This document shows, piece by piece, positions 19,374 through 45,043 of a DNA stretch of 53,343 nucleotides. The position numbers were made by a program, and so were the translations under genes. Source of the stretch: Bacteroidaceae bacterium (lineage in GTDB: Bacteria; Bacteroidota; Bacteroidia; Bacteroidales; Bacteroidaceae); assembly GCA_017536695.1 (NCBI GenBank), contig JAFXGX010000029.1, forward strand, positions 1 to 53,343, given 5' to 3'. A model generated the notes under the pieces. That model made no database searches. It saw only the letters and a program-made list of their open reading frames with translations, and had not been told where the DNA came from. Position 1 is the first letter of the stretch, and the number at the start of each line of letters is the position of its first letter.

Positions 19374-19607
19374 TAAAGAATCAAAATTCCAACCCACTTC
19401 TTTTGATGATTTCCGGAGTATAATGTTTGTTGTCAATCAATTAAATGTAAAAAAGGAGTATGCTCCCCAATTTTTACGCGAAGTTAACTTTTTTTGCTCG
19501 ATTTTGCACTACAAAAAGGGTGTTATTTATCAACAGTTAAATATAAAATATTTAAAAAAACAGCAGTTTGTTGAAGCCTGGTTCTGTGTAATACAATATT
19601 TGCATTG

Positions 19608-19897
19608 TCATTGACTCGTTTTGCCTATCGCAACCCGCTCGGTGTGACTGCTCCACACTGCGAGCGACCTATTGCTGCAAAACTCGCCGATAACAAAAAA
19701 AGGTCATTGACTCGTTTTGCTTTTCGCAACCCAAACGACAAAAGTTAAATTCCTCCTCTGCCTGAGGGGAGGTGCCAGTTTACTGGCGGAGGGGTGGGAG
19801 TGCTACGTTTGACCTGTTGCTGCAAAACTCGCCGATAACAAAACAAAAGAGCATTGGTTCGTTCATTGTTACACTAATGAACTCACCGATAACAAAA
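19608..19897 (+). repeat. Interleaved direct repeats upstream of the TIR genes
   Basis: Repeat A (29 bp, starting TCATTGACTCGTTTTGC and ending TCGCAACCC) occurs at 19608-19636 and 19704-19732 with only a 2-3 bp difference. Repeat B (27 bp, starting TTGCTGCAAAACTCG and ending GATAACAAAA) occurs identically at 19672-19698 and 19817-19843, with a partial third copy at 19880-19897. A and B alternate, so the stretch looks like a duplicated A-B block into which other sequence has been inserted. Confidence 0.8.
19752..19800 (+). repeat. GC-rich inverted-repeat element
   Basis: The element runs from CCTCCTCTGCC to GGAGGGGTGGGAG and contains a perfect GCCAGT-TT-ACTGGC hairpin (19774-19787) beside a CCTC/GAGGGGAGG pairing. 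It is much richer in GC than its surroundings and splits the second A-B repeat block. I recognise its general form as a short dispersed Bacteroidetes intergenic repeat, but cannot name a family. Confidence 0.55.
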
Positions 19898-19906
19898 CGT
19901 TGTTTT

Positions 19907-19933
19907 GTCATTTTGAGCGCAGCGAAAAATCTC
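19907..19933 (-). repeat. Dispersed repeat copy
   Basis: This copy has GTCATTTTGAGCGCAGCG followed by AAAAATCTC and is the closest in the window to the general form GTCATTCTGAGCGnAGCGAAGAATCTC. Related copies are at 25-97, 19351-19373 and 23499-23535. Confidence 0.55.
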
Positions 19934-20025
19934 AAAAATATTATGTCGCTTCATTGATTTGATTGCCTTCTCATGTGAAACACAGCACGTACAGTCATCA
20001 AATACATAGAATAAAATGCCCGATA

Positions 20026-20057
20026 TTTTCTATCTTAATTAAAATAATTTAACTTTG
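20026..20057 (+). promoter_or_regulatory. Promoter of the TIR operon
   Basis: TAACTTTG at 20050-20057 matches the -7 motif TAnnTTTG. TTTTC at 20026-20030 is 19 bp upstream, the expected -33 spacing, though it is not TTTG. The ATG at 20079 is 21 bp downstream. Confidence 0.55.
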
Positions 20058-20078: not shown

Positions 20079-21446
20079 ATGAAATACGATATATTTATAA
20101 GTTATTCCAATAAAGACGAGGCTATTGCCAATGATGTGTGCCATGTTTTGGAGGATAGCGGGTTCAAATGCTGGATAGCGCCGCGCAACATCCAACCGGG
20201 CAAGCAGTATGCGCGAGAGATAATCAATGGAATAAACTCATCGAGCATGCTTTTGTTGATATTCACCTCCAATTCAAATGAATCGGAGCATGTAATCAAT
20301 GAAGTCGATCGTGCATTCAATGCCAAAAAGACAATAGTTCCTTTTTTGGCTGAGAATGTTGTCATGAATGAGGAACTTGATTATTATCTTGCCCGCAAGC
20401 AGTGGTTTGTTGCTTATCCACGGTATAGTTCAAGGCTCGGTGAACTAATAACTACCCTTGCCGAGATATTGCAGAAACCTGTTACCGGCAATAACAGGCA
20501 ACAGGTAGAAACGAGGGATGAGGTCGTTGTCAATAGTGTTTATGAGAAAGACGAAGAAGCCCGTTTAAGTTATGAACAAGCGGAGTGCTTGGATTCTGAA
20601 GGAGATGAAGACACAATTAAGTGGTACCGCAAGGCTGCCGAGCAAGGTGATGCAGATGCGCAATGCTGGCTTGGCTATTGCTATGAGAGTGGCCAGGGTG
20701 TTTCCTGTTCAAAATCCGAGGCAGTTAAGTGGTACCGCAAGGCTGCTGAGCAAGGGAATGCAGATGCGCAATTCTGGCTTGGCATTAGCTATTACAACGG
20801 TAACGGTGTTCCACAATCCTATTCGGAGGCCGTAAAATGGTATCGCAAGTCTGCTGAGCAAGGTGATGCAGATGCGCAATGGTGGCTTGGTATTTGCTAT
20901 TACAACGGCAACGGTGTTTCACAATCCTACTCAGAGGCTGCAAAGTGGTACCGCGAGGCCGCTGAACAAGGGCATGTAGATGCGCAATTCTGGCTTGGTT
21001 ATTGCTATTACAACGGCCAAGGCGTTCCCGAGTCCTATTCTGAGGCTGTAAAATGGTATCGCAAGGCTGCCGAGCAAAGAGGTGCAAATGCGCAATTCTG
21101 GCTTGGTTATTGCTATTACAACGGTCAAGGCGTTCCAGAGTCCTATTCTGAGGCTGTAAAATGGTATCGCAAGGCTGCCGAGCAAGGAGATGCAAATGCG
21201 CAATTCTGGCTTGGTATTTGCTATGAAAACGGCAACGGTGTTTCACAATCCTACTCAGAGGCTGCAAAGTGGTACCGCGAGGCCGCTGAACAAGGGCATG
21301 TAGATGCGCAATGGTGGCTTGGCTATTGCTATGAGAGTGGCCAGGGTGTTTCCTGTTCAAAATCCGAGGCAGTTAAGTGGTACCGCAAGGCAGCTGAGCA
21401 AGGGCATCAGGATGCTAAGGATGCTCTTAAGCGTTTGGGGTATTGA
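20079..21446 (+). CDS. TIR domain protein with seven Sel1 repeats
   Basis: This soluble protein has 455 residues and no signal peptide. The TIR domain (about 1-130) starts KYDIFISYSNKDE and has the box-2-like CWIAPRNIQPG loop; E75 in HVINEVDRA is at the position of the catalytic Glu of NAD-cleaving TIR domains. A charged linker (about 135-165) leads to seven 36-residue Sel1-like repeats with the pattern DAQxWLGxCYxxGxGVxxSxSEAxKWYRxAAEQG, preceded and followed by partial units. The start at 20079 is chosen because it gives the same MKYD(I/V)FISYS opening as the next gene. TIR-Sel1 proteins probably use the repeats for protein binding and the TIR as effector or adaptor; NADase activity here is an inference. 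Confidence 0.9.
   Translation: MKYDIFISYSNKDEAIANDVCHVLEDSGFKCWIAPRNIQPGKQYAREIINGINSSSMLLLIFTSNSNESEHVINEVDRAFNAKKTIVPFLAENVVMNEELDYYLARKQWFVAYPRYSSRLGELITTLAEILQKPVTGNNRQQVETRDEVVVNSVYEKDEEARLSYEQAECLDSEGDEDTIKWYRKAAEQGDADAQCWLGYCYESGQGVSCSKSEAVKWYRKAAEQGNADAQFWLGISYYNGNGVPQSYSEAVKWYRKSAEQGDADAQWWLGICYYNGNGVSQSYSEAAKWYREAAEQGHVDAQFWLGYCYYNGQGVPESYSEAVKWYRKAAEQRGANAQFWLGYCYYNGQGVPESYSEAVKWYRKAAEQGDANAQFWLGICYENGNGVSQSYSEAAKWYREAAEQGHVDAQWWLGYCYESGQGVSCSKSEAVKWYRKAAEQGHQDAKDALKRLGY
20650..21430 (+). repeat. 108-bp tandem repeats encoding the Sel1 array
   Basis: Seven units of 108 bp (36 codons) are highly similar at the DNA level. The segment 20655-20756 in the first unit and 21303-21404 in the last are identical except at about two of 102 positions, which is closer than to the units between them. 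The third and sixth units share a second long near-identical block. Confidence 0.85.
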
Positions 21447-21470
21447 TGTGATTTTTGGAAAGTAGTTACT

Positions 21471-23267
21471 ATGAAATACGATGTATTTATAAGTTACAGC
21501 CGCAAGGATTCTGCTATTGTCAAGCGGTTTGCCGATGAGCTGCATAAGGCGGGATATAGATGTTGGTTGGATGTTGATGGTGTGGAGACAGGTGATGAAT
21601 TCAAAAGCAAGATCGTTACTGCTATAAAAGAATCGGAACTGTTCCTCTTTTTCTCTTCACAGGCATCCAATAGGTCACCTTGGACAGTGAAGGAGGTAAA
21701 TGTTGCTGTCAGCCTTAAAAAAACGATTATTCCGATAAAACTTGATGCGAATGTGTACAATGATTCCCTGTTGTTCGACCTTGCAGGGCTTGATTTTATA
21801 CGTTGCGAAGGTAGCAATGATGTGGATGAAGCGATTGCTAAACTGATACGTTCATTGGGTAAAAAAATAGTAGCGGATAAAAAAGATGAGATCGATATAT
21901 ATAAAAAAGAGGAAGGCGCTGCTAAACCGTCAAATAATTTTTGGAATTACTTTGCAAGCTCGACATTCAAAGTAAGTTTCAGGTATTTTGTTGTGTTGTT
22001 GATTGTTGTTTCTGTTGGAGTTGGTGCTTGGTCAAGTTTCATTGTGCAAACAAGTAAGCAACCCGATACTGAACGTGAACAGCAAAGTTTAGAGCGGGAA
22101 CGACTTAAACAGGCTAGTTCTCAACGCGAACAGTACGTGAAAGATTCATTAATGACAGAATTTGAGCGTAAAGAGAAGGCGCGCATTGCCGAGCAACATC
22201 GTTTGGAAAAGGAACCTCTTGCGAAGGAGAACGCAGAGAAAGTGCGTATTGCTGAACAGCAAAGTTTAGAGCGGGAACGACTTAAACAGGCTAGTTCTCA
22301 ACGCGAACAGTACGTGAAAGATTCATTAATGGCAGAATTTGAGCGTAAAGAGAAGGCGCGCATTGCCGAGCAACAGCGTTTGGAAAAGGAACGTCTTGCG
22401 AAGGAGAACGCAGAGAAAGTGCGTATTGCTGAACAGCAAAGTTTAGAGCGGGAACGACTTAAACAGGCTAGTTCTCAACGCGAACAGTACATGAAAGATT
22501 CATTAATGGCAGAATTTGAGCGTAAAGAGAAGGCGCGCATTGCCGAGCAACAGCGTTTGGAAAAGGAACGTCTTGCGAAGGAGGCGGCAGAGAGAGAACG
22601 TCTTGAGAAAATCCTCTCAACGCCTCGCAGTTCAAAAGGTTTGCTCTGCGTTGCTGCTGTAAATAAAAACAGTCATGAAATAGCATATTTTACTGCCGAA
22701 GAGTGGGAAAGTCTCCCGCAGGATGTAAAAACAAATTATGCCCAGCTCGGTGTCTCAATAAGCAAGGACAGTCATGAATTTATTATTGCACCCATGGATT
22801 GCAAAGACCCGGATGATGGCGATTACGAATTGCGGTTTGGGTGCTATGGTATGGAGTTTGACAGAGTAATACAATATAAAAAAATATCAGAGTTTATTAC
22901 AACCGGATATAATGACACCAAGAATATAGTTGAACAGGCCAAGGGTAAAATTGACTCATTGGGAATTAAGGGCGCACCAGCTGCTGAGGCTGCGTGGAAC
23001 TATAAAACAAATGAATATGACAACCTGCAATGGTATCTGCCTTCTGTTTCGGAATTGGAGATGATTTATAGAAACAAGGATGCGATAAATGAATTTATAA
23101 TCAGGTACATTTCACAAGGAGAGGGGGTACTGGATAAATTTTATTGGAGTAGTACTGTGTATGATTACGATTTCTATTGGTACGTGTATATGAGCAATGG
23201 TTATAGCCTCTACTACAATCTTCGTACTTATAGTCTTCGCGTGCGTGCTGTTGCTCTCGCAAAATAA
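21471..23267 (+). CDS. TIR - transmembrane - coiled-coil - Lcl/DUF1566-type domain protein
   Basis: The protein has 598 residues. A TIR domain (about 1-132) has E75 in WTVKEVNVA at the catalytic Glu position. One membrane helix (about 170-192) follows, then a highly charged coiled coil (200-380) built from near-identical 59-residue units starting at about 203, 262 and 321. The C-terminal region (about 386-598) resembles the Lcl/DUF1566 domain: WYLPSVSELEMIY, YWSST and a final LRVRAVA. With the TIR inside the cell, the coiled coil and C-terminal domain would be outside the inner membrane, like a receptor. It starts 24 bp after the TIR-Sel1 gene, so the two form an operon. The ligand and effect are unknown. 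Confidence 0.85.
   Translation: MKYDVFISYSRKDSAIVKRFADELHKAGYRCWLDVDGVETGDEFKSKIVTAIKESELFLFFSSQASNRSPWTVKEVNVAVSLKKTIIPIKLDANVYNDSLLFDLAGLDFIRCEGSNDVDEAIAKLIRSLGKKIVADKKDEIDIYKKEEGAAKPSNNFWNYFASSTFKVSFRYFVVLLIVVSVGVGAWSSFIVQTSKQPDTEREQQSLERERLKQASSQREQYVKDSLMTEFERKEKARIAEQHRLEKEPLAKENAEKVRIAEQQSLERERLKQASSQREQYVKDSLMAEFERKEKARIAEQQRLEKERLAKENAEKVRIAEQQSLERERLKQASSQREQYMKDSLMAEFERKEKARIAEQQRLEKERLAKEAAERERLEKILSTPRSSKGLLCVAAVNKNSHEIAYFTAEEWESLPQDVKTNYAQLGVSISKDSHEFIIAPMDCKDPDDGDYELRFGCYGMEFDRVIQYKKISEFITTGYNDTKNIVEQAKGKIDSLGIKGAPAAEAAWNYKTNEYDNLQWYLPSVSELEMIYRNKDAINEFIIRYISQGEGVLDKFYWSSTVYDYDFYWYVYMSNGYSLYYNLRTYSLRVRAVALAK
22077..22592 (+). repeat. 177-bp tandem repeats encoding the coiled coil
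   Basis: Three units start at 22077, 22254 and 22431; the third is slightly incomplete. They are nearly identical in DNA, differing at a handful of positions (for example M/T and P/R changes in the first unit). The period is exactly 59 codons, so gain or loss of a unit keeps the frame. Confidence 0.9.
23142..23260 (+). other. Candidate variable region: run of codons ending in C or T at the 3' end of the TIR-TM gene
   Basis: From 23160 to 23240, 24 of 27 codons end in C or T; the exceptions are TGG, GTG and ATG. The residues (Y, D, F, S, N, L, R, T) are those obtained when the first two bases of AAC/AAT codons vary. The segment follows a conserved YWSST and precedes a GC-rich end (23238-23260). 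DGR target genes in gut Bacteroidales have this layout, but no template repeat or reverse transcriptase is in the window. Confidence 0.35.
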
Positions 23268-23301
23268 ACCTTTTCAACTATTTATCGATTTATCTATTGA
23301 T

Positions 23302-23333
23302 ACAAGAGGATGACTCAAAAGTCATCCTCTTGT
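23302..23333 (+). terminator. Hairpin downstream of the TIR operon
   Basis: ACAAGAGGATGAC (23302-23314) pairs perfectly with GTCATCCTCTTGT (23321-23333) around a 6-nt loop. There is only TT then AAA after it, so it is a weak intrinsic terminator, but its position 35 bp after the stop fits that role. Confidence 0.6.
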
Positions 23334-43199: not shown

Positions 43200-43709
43200 T
43201 TAAAGTGTTACAAGGCCTTCGGGAAGGTTGAACAGAATCTCCCTGTTCTCCTGGTCGATGCCTATGATGAACTCTTCCTGTGCAGGTACTAGAATCTCCT
43301 CTCCGTCATTGTCTATCACGAACAGGGTGTTTATGGTGCTCTCGTCGATGTCGGTTATCTCGCCCAGCTCTCCAAGGTTCTCATCGACAGCGATGAACCC
43401 CCGGAAAAAGCTCCAAGAGAGAGCCTCGCTATCCTCGGTCCACTCTCTTGGAATGTATGCCTCGCGGTTTGTGAGGAAACGTACCTCCTCGGCGCTCTCC
43501 ATGCGTTCAATCTTTACAATGAGCGTGTCGCTGTTCTTCGTGCGGCGCGTCTCGAAGAAGAATGGCACCAGTATGCCGTCGATGTCACAGGCTACGAAAT
43601 CGCACTCCTCGCCAAGGAGTATGCTGTCGCCTTCAAGACCAATCTCGCCCTTTGTGCCATGGGGCTTGAGGAACTTGCCGTAATATACAAAATCTTCTTT
43701 CCTGAGCAT
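43200..43709 (-). CDS. rimM: Ribosome maturation factor RimM
   Basis: RimM helps 16S rRNA maturation at the head of the 30S subunit by binding S19. The protein has 169 residues, the usual length. The N-terminal RimM domain starts GKFLKPHGTKGEI and the PRC-barrel part includes ITDIDESTINTLFVI and GEEILVPAQEEFI. The gene follows murA after about 30 bp. The usual neighbours rpsP and trmD are not in this window, so in this organism rimM is part of an envelope gene cluster. Confidence 0.95.
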   Translation of the reverse strand: MLRKEDFVYYGKFLKPHGTKGEIGLEGDSILLGEECDFVACDIDGILVPFFFETRRTKNSDTLIVKIERMESAEEVRFLTNREAYIPREWTEDSEALSWSFFRGFIAVDENLGELGEITDIDESTINTLFVIDNDGEEILVPAQEEFIIGIDQENREILFNLPEGLVTL

Positions 43710-43738
43710 TTGTCGGAAGTTGTTAGGTGTTTCTGTCC

Positions 43739-45043
43739 TTATGAACGTGTTATCTTCGCGCCTATCTGGTTCAGTCTCTCTTCAAGATTCTGATATCCGC
43801 GGTCAATCTGCTCGATGTTATCGATGCGGCTCACTCCGTCGGCGCTCATGGCGGCGATGAGAAGTGCGATACCCGCCCTGATGTCGGGCGAGCTCATAGA
43901 GCGTGGCTTCAGCGTGAAACGTCTGTCGTGTCCAATGACTACGGCGCGGTGCGGGTCGCAGAGTATTATCTGTGCTCCCATGTCAATGAGCTTGTCGACA
44001 AAGAACAGGCGGCTCTCGAACATCTTCTGGTGTATGAGCACGCTGCCTTTTGCCTGTATGGCCGTTACGAGCAGCACGCTCAAGAGGTCGGGCGTCAGGC
44101 CCGGCCATGGTGCGTCGCTTATGTTCATGATTGAGCCGTCGATGAACGAGTCAATCTCATAATGCTCCTGTGATGGGATGAAGATATCATCTCCGCGCTG
44201 CTCGAACTTTATTCCAAGCTTGCGGAAACTGTCGGGTATGATTCCCAGGTTCTCGAACGATACATCCTTTATGGTCAGTTCGCTCTGTGTCATTGCAGCC
44301 ATGCCTATGAAACTGCCGACCTCAATCATGTCGGGCAATGCGCGGTGCGTGCATCCTCCCAGTTCCTTCACGCCCTCAATAGTGAGCAGGTTGCTGGCAA
44401 TGCCCGATATCTTCGCGCCCATCTTGTTGAGCATGCGGCACAACTGCTGTATGTATGGCTCGCAGGCAGCATTGTAGATTGTTGTCGTGCCCTCGGCAAG
44501 TACTGCTGCCATGATGATGTTCGCTGTACCTGTAACCGACGCCTCATCAAGCAGCATGGTGCATCCTTTCAGTTTCCGGGCCTTCATCTTGTACACCCTT
44601 CTCTCTGTGTCGAAGGAGAACTCCGCTCCGAGCTTCTGCAGTCCAATGATGTGCGTGTCGAGTCTGCGGCGGCCAATCTTGTCGCCTCCGGGCTCGGACA
44701 TCGTGGCCTTGCCGAAACGTCCCATTAGCGGGCCGATGAACATTACCGAGCCCCTGAGACGCGAGCAACCGTTGATGTACTCCTCACTCTCGATATAGTC
44801 GAGGTTTATCTCATTCGCCTGGAATGTGTAGCAGCCTACTCCGTTGCGGGTCACTGACACTCCCATGTTCATGAGCTGGCTTATGAGGTTGTTTACATCT
44901 GCAATGTCGGGGATATTCTCTATCGTAACTTTCTCGGGCGTGAGCAGTGTGGCGCAAATCTCCTGCAGCACCTCGTTTTTCGCTCCTTGGGGAGTGATGG
45001 TGCCGTTGAGCTTGTGTCCGCCCTCTATAATGAATGATGCCAT
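43739..45043 (-). CDS. murA: UDP-N-acetylglucosamine 1-carboxyvinyltransferase
   Basis: MurA adds enolpyruvate to UDP-GlcNAc, the first step of peptidoglycan precursor synthesis. The protein has 434 residues. The catalytic K22/N23 pair is in QGAKNEV. The mobile active-site loop reads EPGGDKIG, so D121 replaces the Cys that is normally attacked by fosfomycin (codon GAC at 44681-44683). The C-terminal domain has DLLSVLLVTA and RPRSMSSPDIRAG-like segments. It lies between the DUF4290 gene and rimM. Confidence 0.96.
   Translation of the reverse strand: MASFIIEGGHKLNGTITPQGAKNEVLQEICATLLTPEKVTIENIPDIADVNNLISQLMNMGVSVTRNGVGCYTFQANEINLDYIESEEYINGCSRLRGSVMFIGPLMGRFGKATMSEPGGDKIGRRRLDTHIIGLQKLGAEFSFDTERRVYKMKARKLKGCTMLLDEASVTGTANIIMAAVLAEGTTTIYNAACEPYIQQLCRMLNKMGAKISGIASNLLTIEGVKELGGCTHRALPDMIEVGSFIGMAAMTQSELTIKDVSFENLGIIPDSFRKLGIKFEQRGDDIFIPSQEHYEIDSFIDGSIMNISDAPWPGLTPDLLSVLLVTAIQAKGSVLIHQKMFESRLFFVDKLIDMGAQIILCDPHRAVVIGHDRRFTLKPRSMSSPDIRAGIALLIAAMSADGVSRIDNIEQIDRGYQNLEERLNQIGAKITRS

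Follow-up and report, generated by a model that had tools for sequence, protein, structure and literature searches.

A membrane TIR receptor of a Bacteroidaceae bacterium with a sensor domain probably diversified in trans by a prophage-borne DGR

Both immune sensors diversified by a diversity-generating retroelement (DGR) and DGR targets remote from their reverse transcriptase (RT) are already known. In the putative antigen sensors of Thiohalocapsa PB-PSB1, the variable repeat (VR) falls within a CLec domain at the C-terminus, to which immune effector domains are fused; according to the accessible part of that paper, one target combines CHAT and TIR domains and some targets have membrane segments (PMC10907252). 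The protein studied here, the product of gene 2 of the locus described below, has a similar layout, with an end domain that is putatively of C-type lectin type, and shares the idea of a DGR-diversified antigen sensor. It differs in being one TIR-TM-Lcl chain encoded on another contig than the prophage cassette, whereas the Thiohalocapsa targets lie inside the DGR loci of multicellular bacteria and have STAND or MoxR partners. Remote variable proteins of cyanobacteria, found by homology to the template (TR) at gene 3' ends, are likewise encoded far from the RT, and TIR-like domains are among their less common features; they belong to a different group of bacteria, and the accessible text describes no prophage DGR that diversifies a TIR receptor of its host (PMC7517822).

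Other systems resemble the present one in parts. A Bacteroides prophage DGR (PMC6199706) and the C-lec targets of gut phages (PMC10743442) are alike in RT, accessory gene and C-type lectin VR, but the targets described in the available portions of these papers are phage proteins. The ternary and bDLD conflict systems combine FGS domains with DGRs whose TR sometimes lies elsewhere in the genome, and their authors propose an analogy to hypermutated adaptive immune receptors; these systems differ in being NTPase-based and multi-gene, and a membrane TIR receptor is not described in the excerpts available (PMC7159879, PMC8195603). SpbK, a single-protein TIR defence, offers another parallel as a TIR NADase that acts by abortive infection and contacts a phage protein, but the accessible text mentions no DGR (PMC12847820). 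Among the literature matches listed, which cover few subscription journals, none describes a membrane TIR receptor of one chain that is supplied by the DGR of a prophage.

The window, by which we mean the whole contig of 53,343 nt analyzed here, comes from a bacterium related to animal-gut species, and the parts of its TIR locus described below lie on the plus strand. Two TIR genes follow each other on the same strand, 24 nt apart, with near-identical starts (MKYDIFISYS in gene 1, MKYDVFISYS in gene 2) and Glu at residue 75 in each, just as the first-pass annotation of this DNA had described them. Gene 1 (20079..21446) encodes a TIR-Sel1 protein of 455 aa, in which Pfam recognizes TIR_2 at residues 5-111 (E 3.4e-20) and eight Sel1 stretches, in agreement with the repeats reported earlier. 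Its 108-nt Sel1 repeat array (20619..21458) consists of in-register copies, the last of which overruns the stop, and the protein lacks a strong membrane helix, its best hydropathy stretch being 0.97. A candidate promoter box seen in the sequence at 20050..20057, TAACTTTG, is one that we take to fit the Bacteroidetes -7 promoter box TAnnTTTG. The leader TAACTTTGCGTC is also kept at a sister locus in another genome (L009:5972), there ahead of a TIR-TM-Lcl gene instead of TIR-Sel1.

Gene 2 (21471..23267) encodes the putative remote DGR target, a TIR-TM-coil-Lcl_C protein of 598 aa characterized by ORF, Pfam and VR/TR comparison. Its TIR domain occupies residues 5-126 (21483..21848; Pfam TIR_2, E 2.2e-24, and alignments), and a single membrane helix is predicted at residues 174-192 (21990..22046; mean hydropathy 2.45). 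The charged linker, previously termed a stiff coiled coil, was resolved by repeat search into three tandem 177-nt units (22076..22606), which encode near-identical stretches of 59 residues, the other two copies being 98% and 93% identical to the reference; this array is absent from gene 1 of the sister locus. The Lcl_C-type sensor domain (22629..23264) is homologous to the target protein of the prophage DGR, with 44% amino-acid identity. The Lcl_C match covers residues 510-594 (E 2.1e-7) and scores 31.7 bits, below the 34.9 cut-off and approximately at the cut-off in the genome search; the profile is above cut-off for the C109 and C91a proteins. The helix and the Lcl_C match support the earlier proposal that the TIR protein sits in the membrane and ends in a domain of the ligand-binding type. 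In a tree of Lcl domains built without the VR, seven cellular and seven phage domains part at 99/98 support. The first-pass annotation had missed that the 3' end of gene 2 is a DGR variable repeat, which is the main point of the present analysis.

Glu75 is invariant among 70 aligned TIR proteins (the 72 TIR loci without L062, L070 and L080, and with the second gene of L009 added). By sequence profile it aligns with the Glu of SARM1, tir-1 and AbTIR, a column that we take to hold the catalytic Glu of NADase TIRs, and the position assigned to it earlier therefore appears to be correct. The TIR_2 domain and Glu75 place both genes within the TIR-domain definition of immune TIRs, and we infer a TIR NADase output and an anti-phage role for gene 2. 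Assignment to Thoeris is not supported: ThsB models match the TIR part weakly, and no ThsA-like gene was recognized by eye in the ORFs at 17-27 kb, where those flanking the TIR genes appear to be purH, nadB and other household genes. Nor is a known PADLOC system supported, as each protein gives 12 partial matches, nearly all to TIR parts, and no full-length match; outside the TIR parts, gene 1 has one match to PtuA, and the charged linker of gene 2 has one to a type II restriction enzyme. No Rfam family reaches its gathering score in the window.

The TIR locus looks like an insertion because the purH–nadB spot is empty in 7 of the 12 same-genus genomes, the interval there being < 700 bp without a TIR match; of the remaining five, one has two other genes between purH and nadB, and four are without nadB in the stretch read. 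The inserted module suggested by the first-pass annotation remains likely, but its proposed bounding by repeats was rejected: the sequence upstream of the TIR genes (19600-19960) belongs to an intergenic repeat that is dispersed over the genome, where it has 70 matches, and therefore marks no module boundary.

The TR, Avd and RT that concern gene 2 are located on contig C109 of the same genome, apart from the window contig, inside a prophage with genes for integrase, tape measure, head protease and primase and with host-type genes to its left. The RT (43579-44835) matches RVT_1 and carries IGNLPSQ, which is presumably a DGR-type RT motif, and the accessory gene matches bAvd PF22296 at 41.8 bits (cut-off 40) as well as phrog_3206, 'Avd protein of DGR'. 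The cis VR belongs to an Lcl_C protein encoded by the prophage itself, and a second TIR-Lcl gene, on a third contig (C91), carries another remote VR of the same TR. This RT is present in 2 of the 12 genomes searched, its own and G004. No phage with a closer TR was found by a 22-mer search of viral contigs, a close-relative search or a search of plasmids (0 matches each); among wider TR searches, a profile search returned three distant phage loci and the phages collection one record with 52.9% identity.

The VR core of gene 2, approximately 86 nt at its 3' end (23176..23261), matches the TR at G000:C109:44818-44903, minus strand. Mismatches fall at 13 of the 30 template A positions and at 3 of the 56 others (p = 3.7e-5), 17 A and 53 non-A positions being kept. 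The same bias is seen in the VRs of the C91 gene (18/30 at A, 3/56 elsewhere; p = 4.3e-8), the prophage in cis (12/30, 2/56; p = 3.1e-5) and the second gene of the sister locus, L009g2 (15/30, 5/56; p = 3.5e-5), and template C, G and T positions have no mismatch excess. A DGR criterion given in the accessible part of PMC8144416 is that at least 75% of mismatches lie at TR adenines; the share is 81% (13/16) for the window gene, which falls within it, 86% each for C91 and the cis prophage VR, and 75% for L009g2, which barely reaches it. In-cassette TRs served as controls over 70-nt stretches: the phage loci L142, L143 and L145 have 0 non-A mismatches against 10, 8 and 11 at A, G004 has 2 against 7, and C109 itself 2 against 9. 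The three non-A mismatches of the window VR point either to a template that differed slightly or to some drift after homing last took place. Codons with a changed amino acid keep the TR third base in 11/11 cases in the window, 14/14 in C91, 13/13 in the cis prophage VR and 12/13 in L009g2. Third bases match at 27 of 28 positions in the VR; outside it, in the rest of the domain, they match at 60/173 between window and prophage and at 83/181 between window and C91.

Sequence comparison shows that the last 22 nt of the VR (23240..23261) are identical to the TR and stand in the place of an IMH (initiation of mutagenic homing) site; by analogy with the system in the available portion of PMC12875486, they may constitute an IMH-like site. 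A pattern search located the ATTTATCNRTTTATCTNTT box at 23280..23298; the 2.63-Mb genome contains it three times as an exact match, once behind every one of the three VRs at a distance of 17-27 nt on the 3' side, and a reversed-pattern control gave 0, but the pattern was drawn from these three sites and therefore only the absence of other copies is informative. A 14-bp stem-loop (23302..23333; folding z -5.5) lies about 40 nt 3' of the VR and may be a terminator or a DGR target-recognition hairpin; the equivalent z scores are -1.7 at C91, where the 84-nt stretch that was folded stops within the stem, and -2.9 at the prophage.

The closest relative found, L009, occupies the same chromosomal spot in the sister genome and has two adjacent TIR genes, both TIR-TM-Lcl. 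Around the VR, the window and L009g2 are 97% identical (146/150 nt upstream, 115/119 downstream), while the VRs themselves differ at 17 of 30 A sites and 5 of 56 others (p = 2.9e-6). The RT was not found in the sister genome, which is 87% complete, so its VR must come from an element since lost, unassembled or elsewhere. Gene 1 of L009 was rejected as a DGR target, as it has no A bias (19/29 vs 25/55, p = 0.064).

Taken together, the A-biased mismatches, the kept third bases, the other VRs and the differing sister VR lead us to conclude that gene 2 is very probably a TIR receptor with a sensor domain diversified by a DGR in trans. Its 3' end, the C91 gene and the prophage Lcl_C gene are shown, at the level of sequence, to carry VRs of one TR/Avd/RT cassette, and the writer of the gene 2 VR is most likely the prophage-borne element acting in trans.

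TIR-Lcl proteins of other genera are not supported as general DGR targets and, judging from their sequences, appear to be independent of DGRs. Of 16 genomes selected by eye because they carry TIR-Lcl or similar TIR genes, 2 have an RVT_1 match. The motif is QGAPTSP (not DGR-like) in one of the two RTs and IGNLTSQ (DGR-like) in the other; in neither RT locus (3.6 kb each) was the end of the TIR gene matched by a TR-like stretch, the best stretches being no better than swapped controls. In the PEGA-Lcl genes of G016 the bias toward A is no more than weak (13/29 vs 9/55, p = 0.0058; 11/29 vs 9/53, p = 0.034). The Lcl genes near a caspase on contig C50 of the window genome were rejected as VRs, having generic ends by eye and being absent among DNA matches to the VR.

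A different origin of the A-biased differences would be gene conversion, in which the prophage target is diversified in cis and ordinary recombination carries VR-sized pieces of it over to the TIR genes. The prophage and window domains are indeed homologous (291/512 nt), and domains have been shuffled among the two L009 genes and the window gene at this spot. However, the boundaries of the conversion tracts would have to fall at those of the VR at each separate locus, only 83/146 nt (prophage) and 93/150 nt (C91) match the window just upstream of the VR, and the 3' box that the three VRs have in common has no further exact match in the genome; we consider conversion very unlikely. It is rather unlikely, in our judgment, that the writing of the TIR VRs has ended and their sequences no longer change, leaving an ordinary static sensor. 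The non-A mismatches in the window and the RT not found in the sister genome would agree with such a relic, but the frame is open, the cis VR is hardly cleaner, and the divergence of the VRs between nearly identical flanks makes the writing recent on that scale.

Two further alternatives concern function. The first-pass annotation had proposed a fixed two-gene system of a TIR sensor and a TIR partner, and TIR genes do stand side by side here and again in L009, with TIR-Lcl pairs also on C91 and in L015. The fixed pairing of TIR-Sel1 with a TIR receptor did not hold up, since TIR-Sel1 is absent from L009. In a scan for start motifs, 4 of 72 TIR loci (L009, L010, L015, L046) have another TIR start no more than about 1.5 kb farther downstream, and none of the four, read through, is a Sel1/Lcl pair; another TIR-Sel1, on the 3.7-kb contig C106, has no second TIR gene matched there. 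We regard a fixed system as doubtful. It is also unlikely that the receptor serves no defence and senses host glycan, a neighbor or envelope state, with the DGR tracking a changing environment. Weak PDB profile matches of the Lcl domain, to the hypothetical protein 4eps (E 0.0044), which we take to be of Bacteroides origin, and to 8q4e HbP1 (E 0.0045), would suit such a role. Bacteroides DGRs also diversify pilus tips, according to work cited in the accessible text of PMC12632263. On the other side stand the TIR with its conserved Glu and the occurrence of the same sensor module by a caspase gene in two same-genus genomes, both common in conflict systems.

For a DGR-diversified TIR receptor we propose that the RT would copy the TR RNA with errors at A, and that the cDNA would be substituted for the VR in the 3'-terminal part of the TIR gene. 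The changed, C-type-lectin-like Lcl_C surface could then bind varying ligands, in the case of gene 2 on the periplasmic side, and ligand binding would cluster the TIR domains. Clustered TIRs may cleave NAD+ or make a nucleotide signal, leading to a growth stop during infection, and the TIR-Sel1 neighbor could be a co-assembling TIR partner. In a broader model, for and against which we see about equal reason, prophage and host would share one mutagenic machine: the DGR would rewrite its own Lcl_C tip and, in trans, host TIR sensors with the same domain, providing the population with a repertoire of Toll-like receptors ahead of infection. Diversification would cease where the prophage is lost and start where it is gained, and caspase-linked sensors would use the same kind of template.

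The locus may thus represent, in a bacterium, the equivalent of a purposely mutated receptor, and it would tie a prophage to the diversification of a host receptor. DGR surveys restricted to targets adjoining the RT, a limit stated in the accessible part of PMC8144416, miss such receptors. As the same module also occurs by caspases, it may be a sensor that can be exchanged among several death effectors. Gene 2 would be a compact example, open to testing, of an immune-type receptor whose sensor is mutated by design, and its template, enzyme and hypervariable end have all been located in sequence.

The soluble and the membrane-bound TIR protein described side by side in the first-pass annotation are indeed encoded by adjacent genes, TIR-Sel1 (gene 1, 20079-21446) and TIR-TM-coil-Lcl_C (gene 2, 21471-23267), which are separated by 24 nt and each retain Glu75. 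This residue is invariant in all 70 aligned TIR proteins (72 loci less L062, L070 and L080, plus the second gene of the sister-genome locus L009), and in a profile comparison it shares a column with the Glu of tir-1/SARM1 and AbTIR, which we take to be catalytic. The membrane helix proposed for gene 2 corresponds to its one segment of strong hydrophobicity (residues 174-192), a feature that gene 1 lacks. The charged linker of gene 2 contains three near-identical 177-nt units of 59 residues (22076-22606). Since these units are absent from the first gene of L009, receptor length may change quickly. An intergenic repeat at 19600-19960 has 70 matches in the genome.

Based on sequence matches and names assigned by eye, the TIR locus lies between purH and nadB. 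The spot was read in 12 genomes of the same genus. In seven of them fewer than 700 bp separate purH from nadB and nothing matches TIR, in four nadB is missing from the 6.3 kb read, and one (G009) carries two other genes, so that the spot takes different inserts. The two G009 genes, which follow purH on contig C35 (L155, 340-1517), are Pfs-like and LuxS-like by eye. In the sister genome, taken as G019, this position is occupied by L009, where the leader is the same and is followed by two TIR-TM-Lcl genes instead of the fixed TIR-Sel1 partnership that had been proposed, which was not borne out. The first gene has 97% DNA identity to gene 2 over the TIR and membrane part, the Lcl end of the second (L009g2) is the counterpart of the window Lcl end, and, by eye, the TIR of L009g2 and the TIR of the window TIR-Sel1 belong to one kind. 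Judged from this gene layout, pieces have been shuffled and Sel1 is no fixed partner.

Gene 2 ends in WYVYMSNGYSLYYNLRTYSLRVRAVALAK, a stretch rich in Y, S, L and N that occupies the position expected for the variable repeat (VR) of a diversity-generating retroelement (DGR) and was missed in the first-pass annotation. A DNA search of the source genome (G000, 2.63 Mb in 109 contigs) with window positions 23060-23270 returned, besides itself, three other places, all on the minus strand: C109:44818-44901, C109:45473-45560 and C91:4583-4711. The minus strand of contig C109 encodes a complete cassette composed of a first Lcl gene, a VR-bearing Lcl gene (258 aa), an Avd-like accessory gene, the template repeat (TR) and a reverse transcriptase (RT). 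Pfam and PHROGs name the cassette genes as bAvd / Avd protein of DGR and reverse transcriptase; the RVT_1 match is at C109:43945-44598, and the RT contains IGNLPSQ, a DGR signature. The left side of C109 reads as chromosome (TonB receptor, Wzi, glycosyltransferase, RlmN and ArsP-type genes among eight proteins scanned) and phage genes start with an integrase at 40.7 kb (endolysin, head maturation protease, tape measure, primase), a gene content that places the cassette inside an integrated prophage. Both gene 2 (on contig C1) and the C91 target are on contigs other than C109.

Further elements were observed in the same genome. A second DGR (L098, C98:5500-11500, minus strand) has a 658-aa target protein (5992-4016, minus) and an RT with IGLRSSQ (3568-2258, minus), and its 60-nt VR/TR pair has five A and no non-A mismatches. 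On C91, a second TIR-TM-Lcl gene (L097, 7047-5803, minus) directly adjoins the DGR target; its end contains no VR of the C109 TR. Another TIR-Sel1 gene (L102, 2982-1846, minus) is found on the 3.7-kb contig C106.

The TR core is 86 nt long, with 30 A and 56 other positions. Mismatches to it fall at 13/30 A and 3/56 non-A positions in the window VR (p 3.7e-5), 18/30 and 3/56 in the C91 TIR-Lcl gene (p 4.3e-8), 12/30 and 2/56 in the prophage cis VR (p 3.1e-5), and 15/30 and 5/56 in L009g2 (p 3.5e-5), with no excess at template bases other than A in these comparisons. Control TR/VR comparisons spanning 70 nt gave 10, 8 and 11 A mismatches and no non-A mismatch for in-cassette phage pairs (L142, L143 and L145, respectively), seven A and two non-A for the G004 prophage, and nine A and two non-A for C109 itself. 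Because conserved residues coded by non-A bases could mimic an A bias, we used a third-codon-base test as a check on protein constraint. The amino acid differs from the TR in 11 (window), 14 (C91), 13 (cis VR) and 13 (L009g2) of 28 codons, and the third base of these changed codons is kept in 11/11, 14/14, 13/13 and 12/13, respectively. Third bases agree at 27/28 VR codons but at only 60/173 in the rest of the domain between window and prophage (p 1.9e-10), and at 27/28 versus 83/181 between window and C91 (p 8.3e-8). The window and L009g2 (26/28 versus 160/181, p 0.38) are too close for this test to inform, so the evidence there is one of position: identity is 146/150 nt before the VR and 115/119 after it, while the VRs differ at 17/30 A sites and 5/56 others (p 2.9e-6).

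A tree of 14 Lcl domains with the VR removed separates seven cellular domains (four TIR, two PEGA, and one beside a caspase, this last domain being only 40% filled) from seven phage ones by a branch of length 0.43 with support 99/98. Despite these separate sides, the window and C91 VRs each keep 53/56 non-A positions of the C109 TR, as predicted for homing from one TR; the PEGA genes lack such conservation (9/55 and 9/53 non-A mismatches). Each of the three VRs in the genome is followed, 17-27 nt further 3', by a 19-nt box, ATTTATCNRTTTATCTNTT, for which the genome gave no further exact match, the pattern itself being derived from these three sites. A stem-loop is also found 3' of each of the three, the strongest in the window. 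In BPP-1 a stem-loop 3' of the initiation of mutagenic homing site is described as aiding homing (PMC12875486); those seen here may be terminators. Taken as sequence evidence, gene 2 is very probably a remote target of the C109 DGR. The remote VR, the template, the enzyme genes and A-directed divergence between two close relatives are directly observed, and present-day diversifying activity seems somewhat likely.

Lcl domain matches occur in 11 of 61 surveyed genomes, with strong matches (E below 1e-20) in five (G000, the source genome, G004, G016, G019 and G032), and at E 1e-10 or better in 6 of 399 genomes of the family. An RT of the C109 kind is present in 2 of 12 genomes (G000 and G004). 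Of the 70 TIR proteins, 15 carry Lcl_C and 11 carry Sel1. Evidence against a general link between TIR-Lcl genes and DGRs is that, among 16 genomes chosen because they carry TIR-Lcl or similar genes, only 2 have an RVT_1 match, and in neither of these does the RT locus show TR-like similarity to the genome's own TIR gene. G065 encodes an RT with IGNLTSQ (L130, C4:69658-70242 region) and a TIR-Lcl gene (L031), between which no TR-like match was found. A tandem TIR-Lcl pair in an Alistipes MAG (L015, 6001-8362) is, by eye, without a membrane helix, and this MAG gave no RVT_1 match. In G032, an Lcl sensor gene cut by the contig end (L124 on C1, 5475-5098, minus) has caspase C14 (Peptidase_C14) as its next gene and bears a VR of the C109 TR type (A 11/27, non-A 3/54; p 1.9e-4). 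In G016 (L121 on C45, 1-6366), one intervening gene separates the sensor module from a caspase C14 gene, and another gene there matches sigma-70 region 4 weakly, at a score under the cut-off.

We propose that the prophage TR would home in trans into the VR of the TIR gene, and that the C-terminus of gene 2 would lie outside the inner membrane, with Lcl_C as its exposed binding surface. TIR clustering would be followed by NAD+ loss, potentially used against phages. The C91 TIR-Lcl sensor would be cytoplasmic, since it has no strong membrane helix (best hydropathy 1.64, within its TIR). Immune-type signalling through TIR is modestly favored, and a role in phage defence is an even call.

Conflict-system sensors diversified by DGRs, among them one target bearing both CHAT and TIR, have been described (PMC10907252, PMC7159879, PMC8195603), as have remote DGR targets in cyanobacteria, some with TIR-like domains (PMC7517822), and a prophage DGR in Bacteroides (PMC6199706). 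Among the papers listed by the literature searches, no account of host TIR receptors as targets of a prophage DGR was found; the system is therefore described as a variant of known DGR-diversified sensors. What appears new here is best described as a one-chain Toll-like membrane receptor in a Bacteroidales genome that would be diversified from a prophage.
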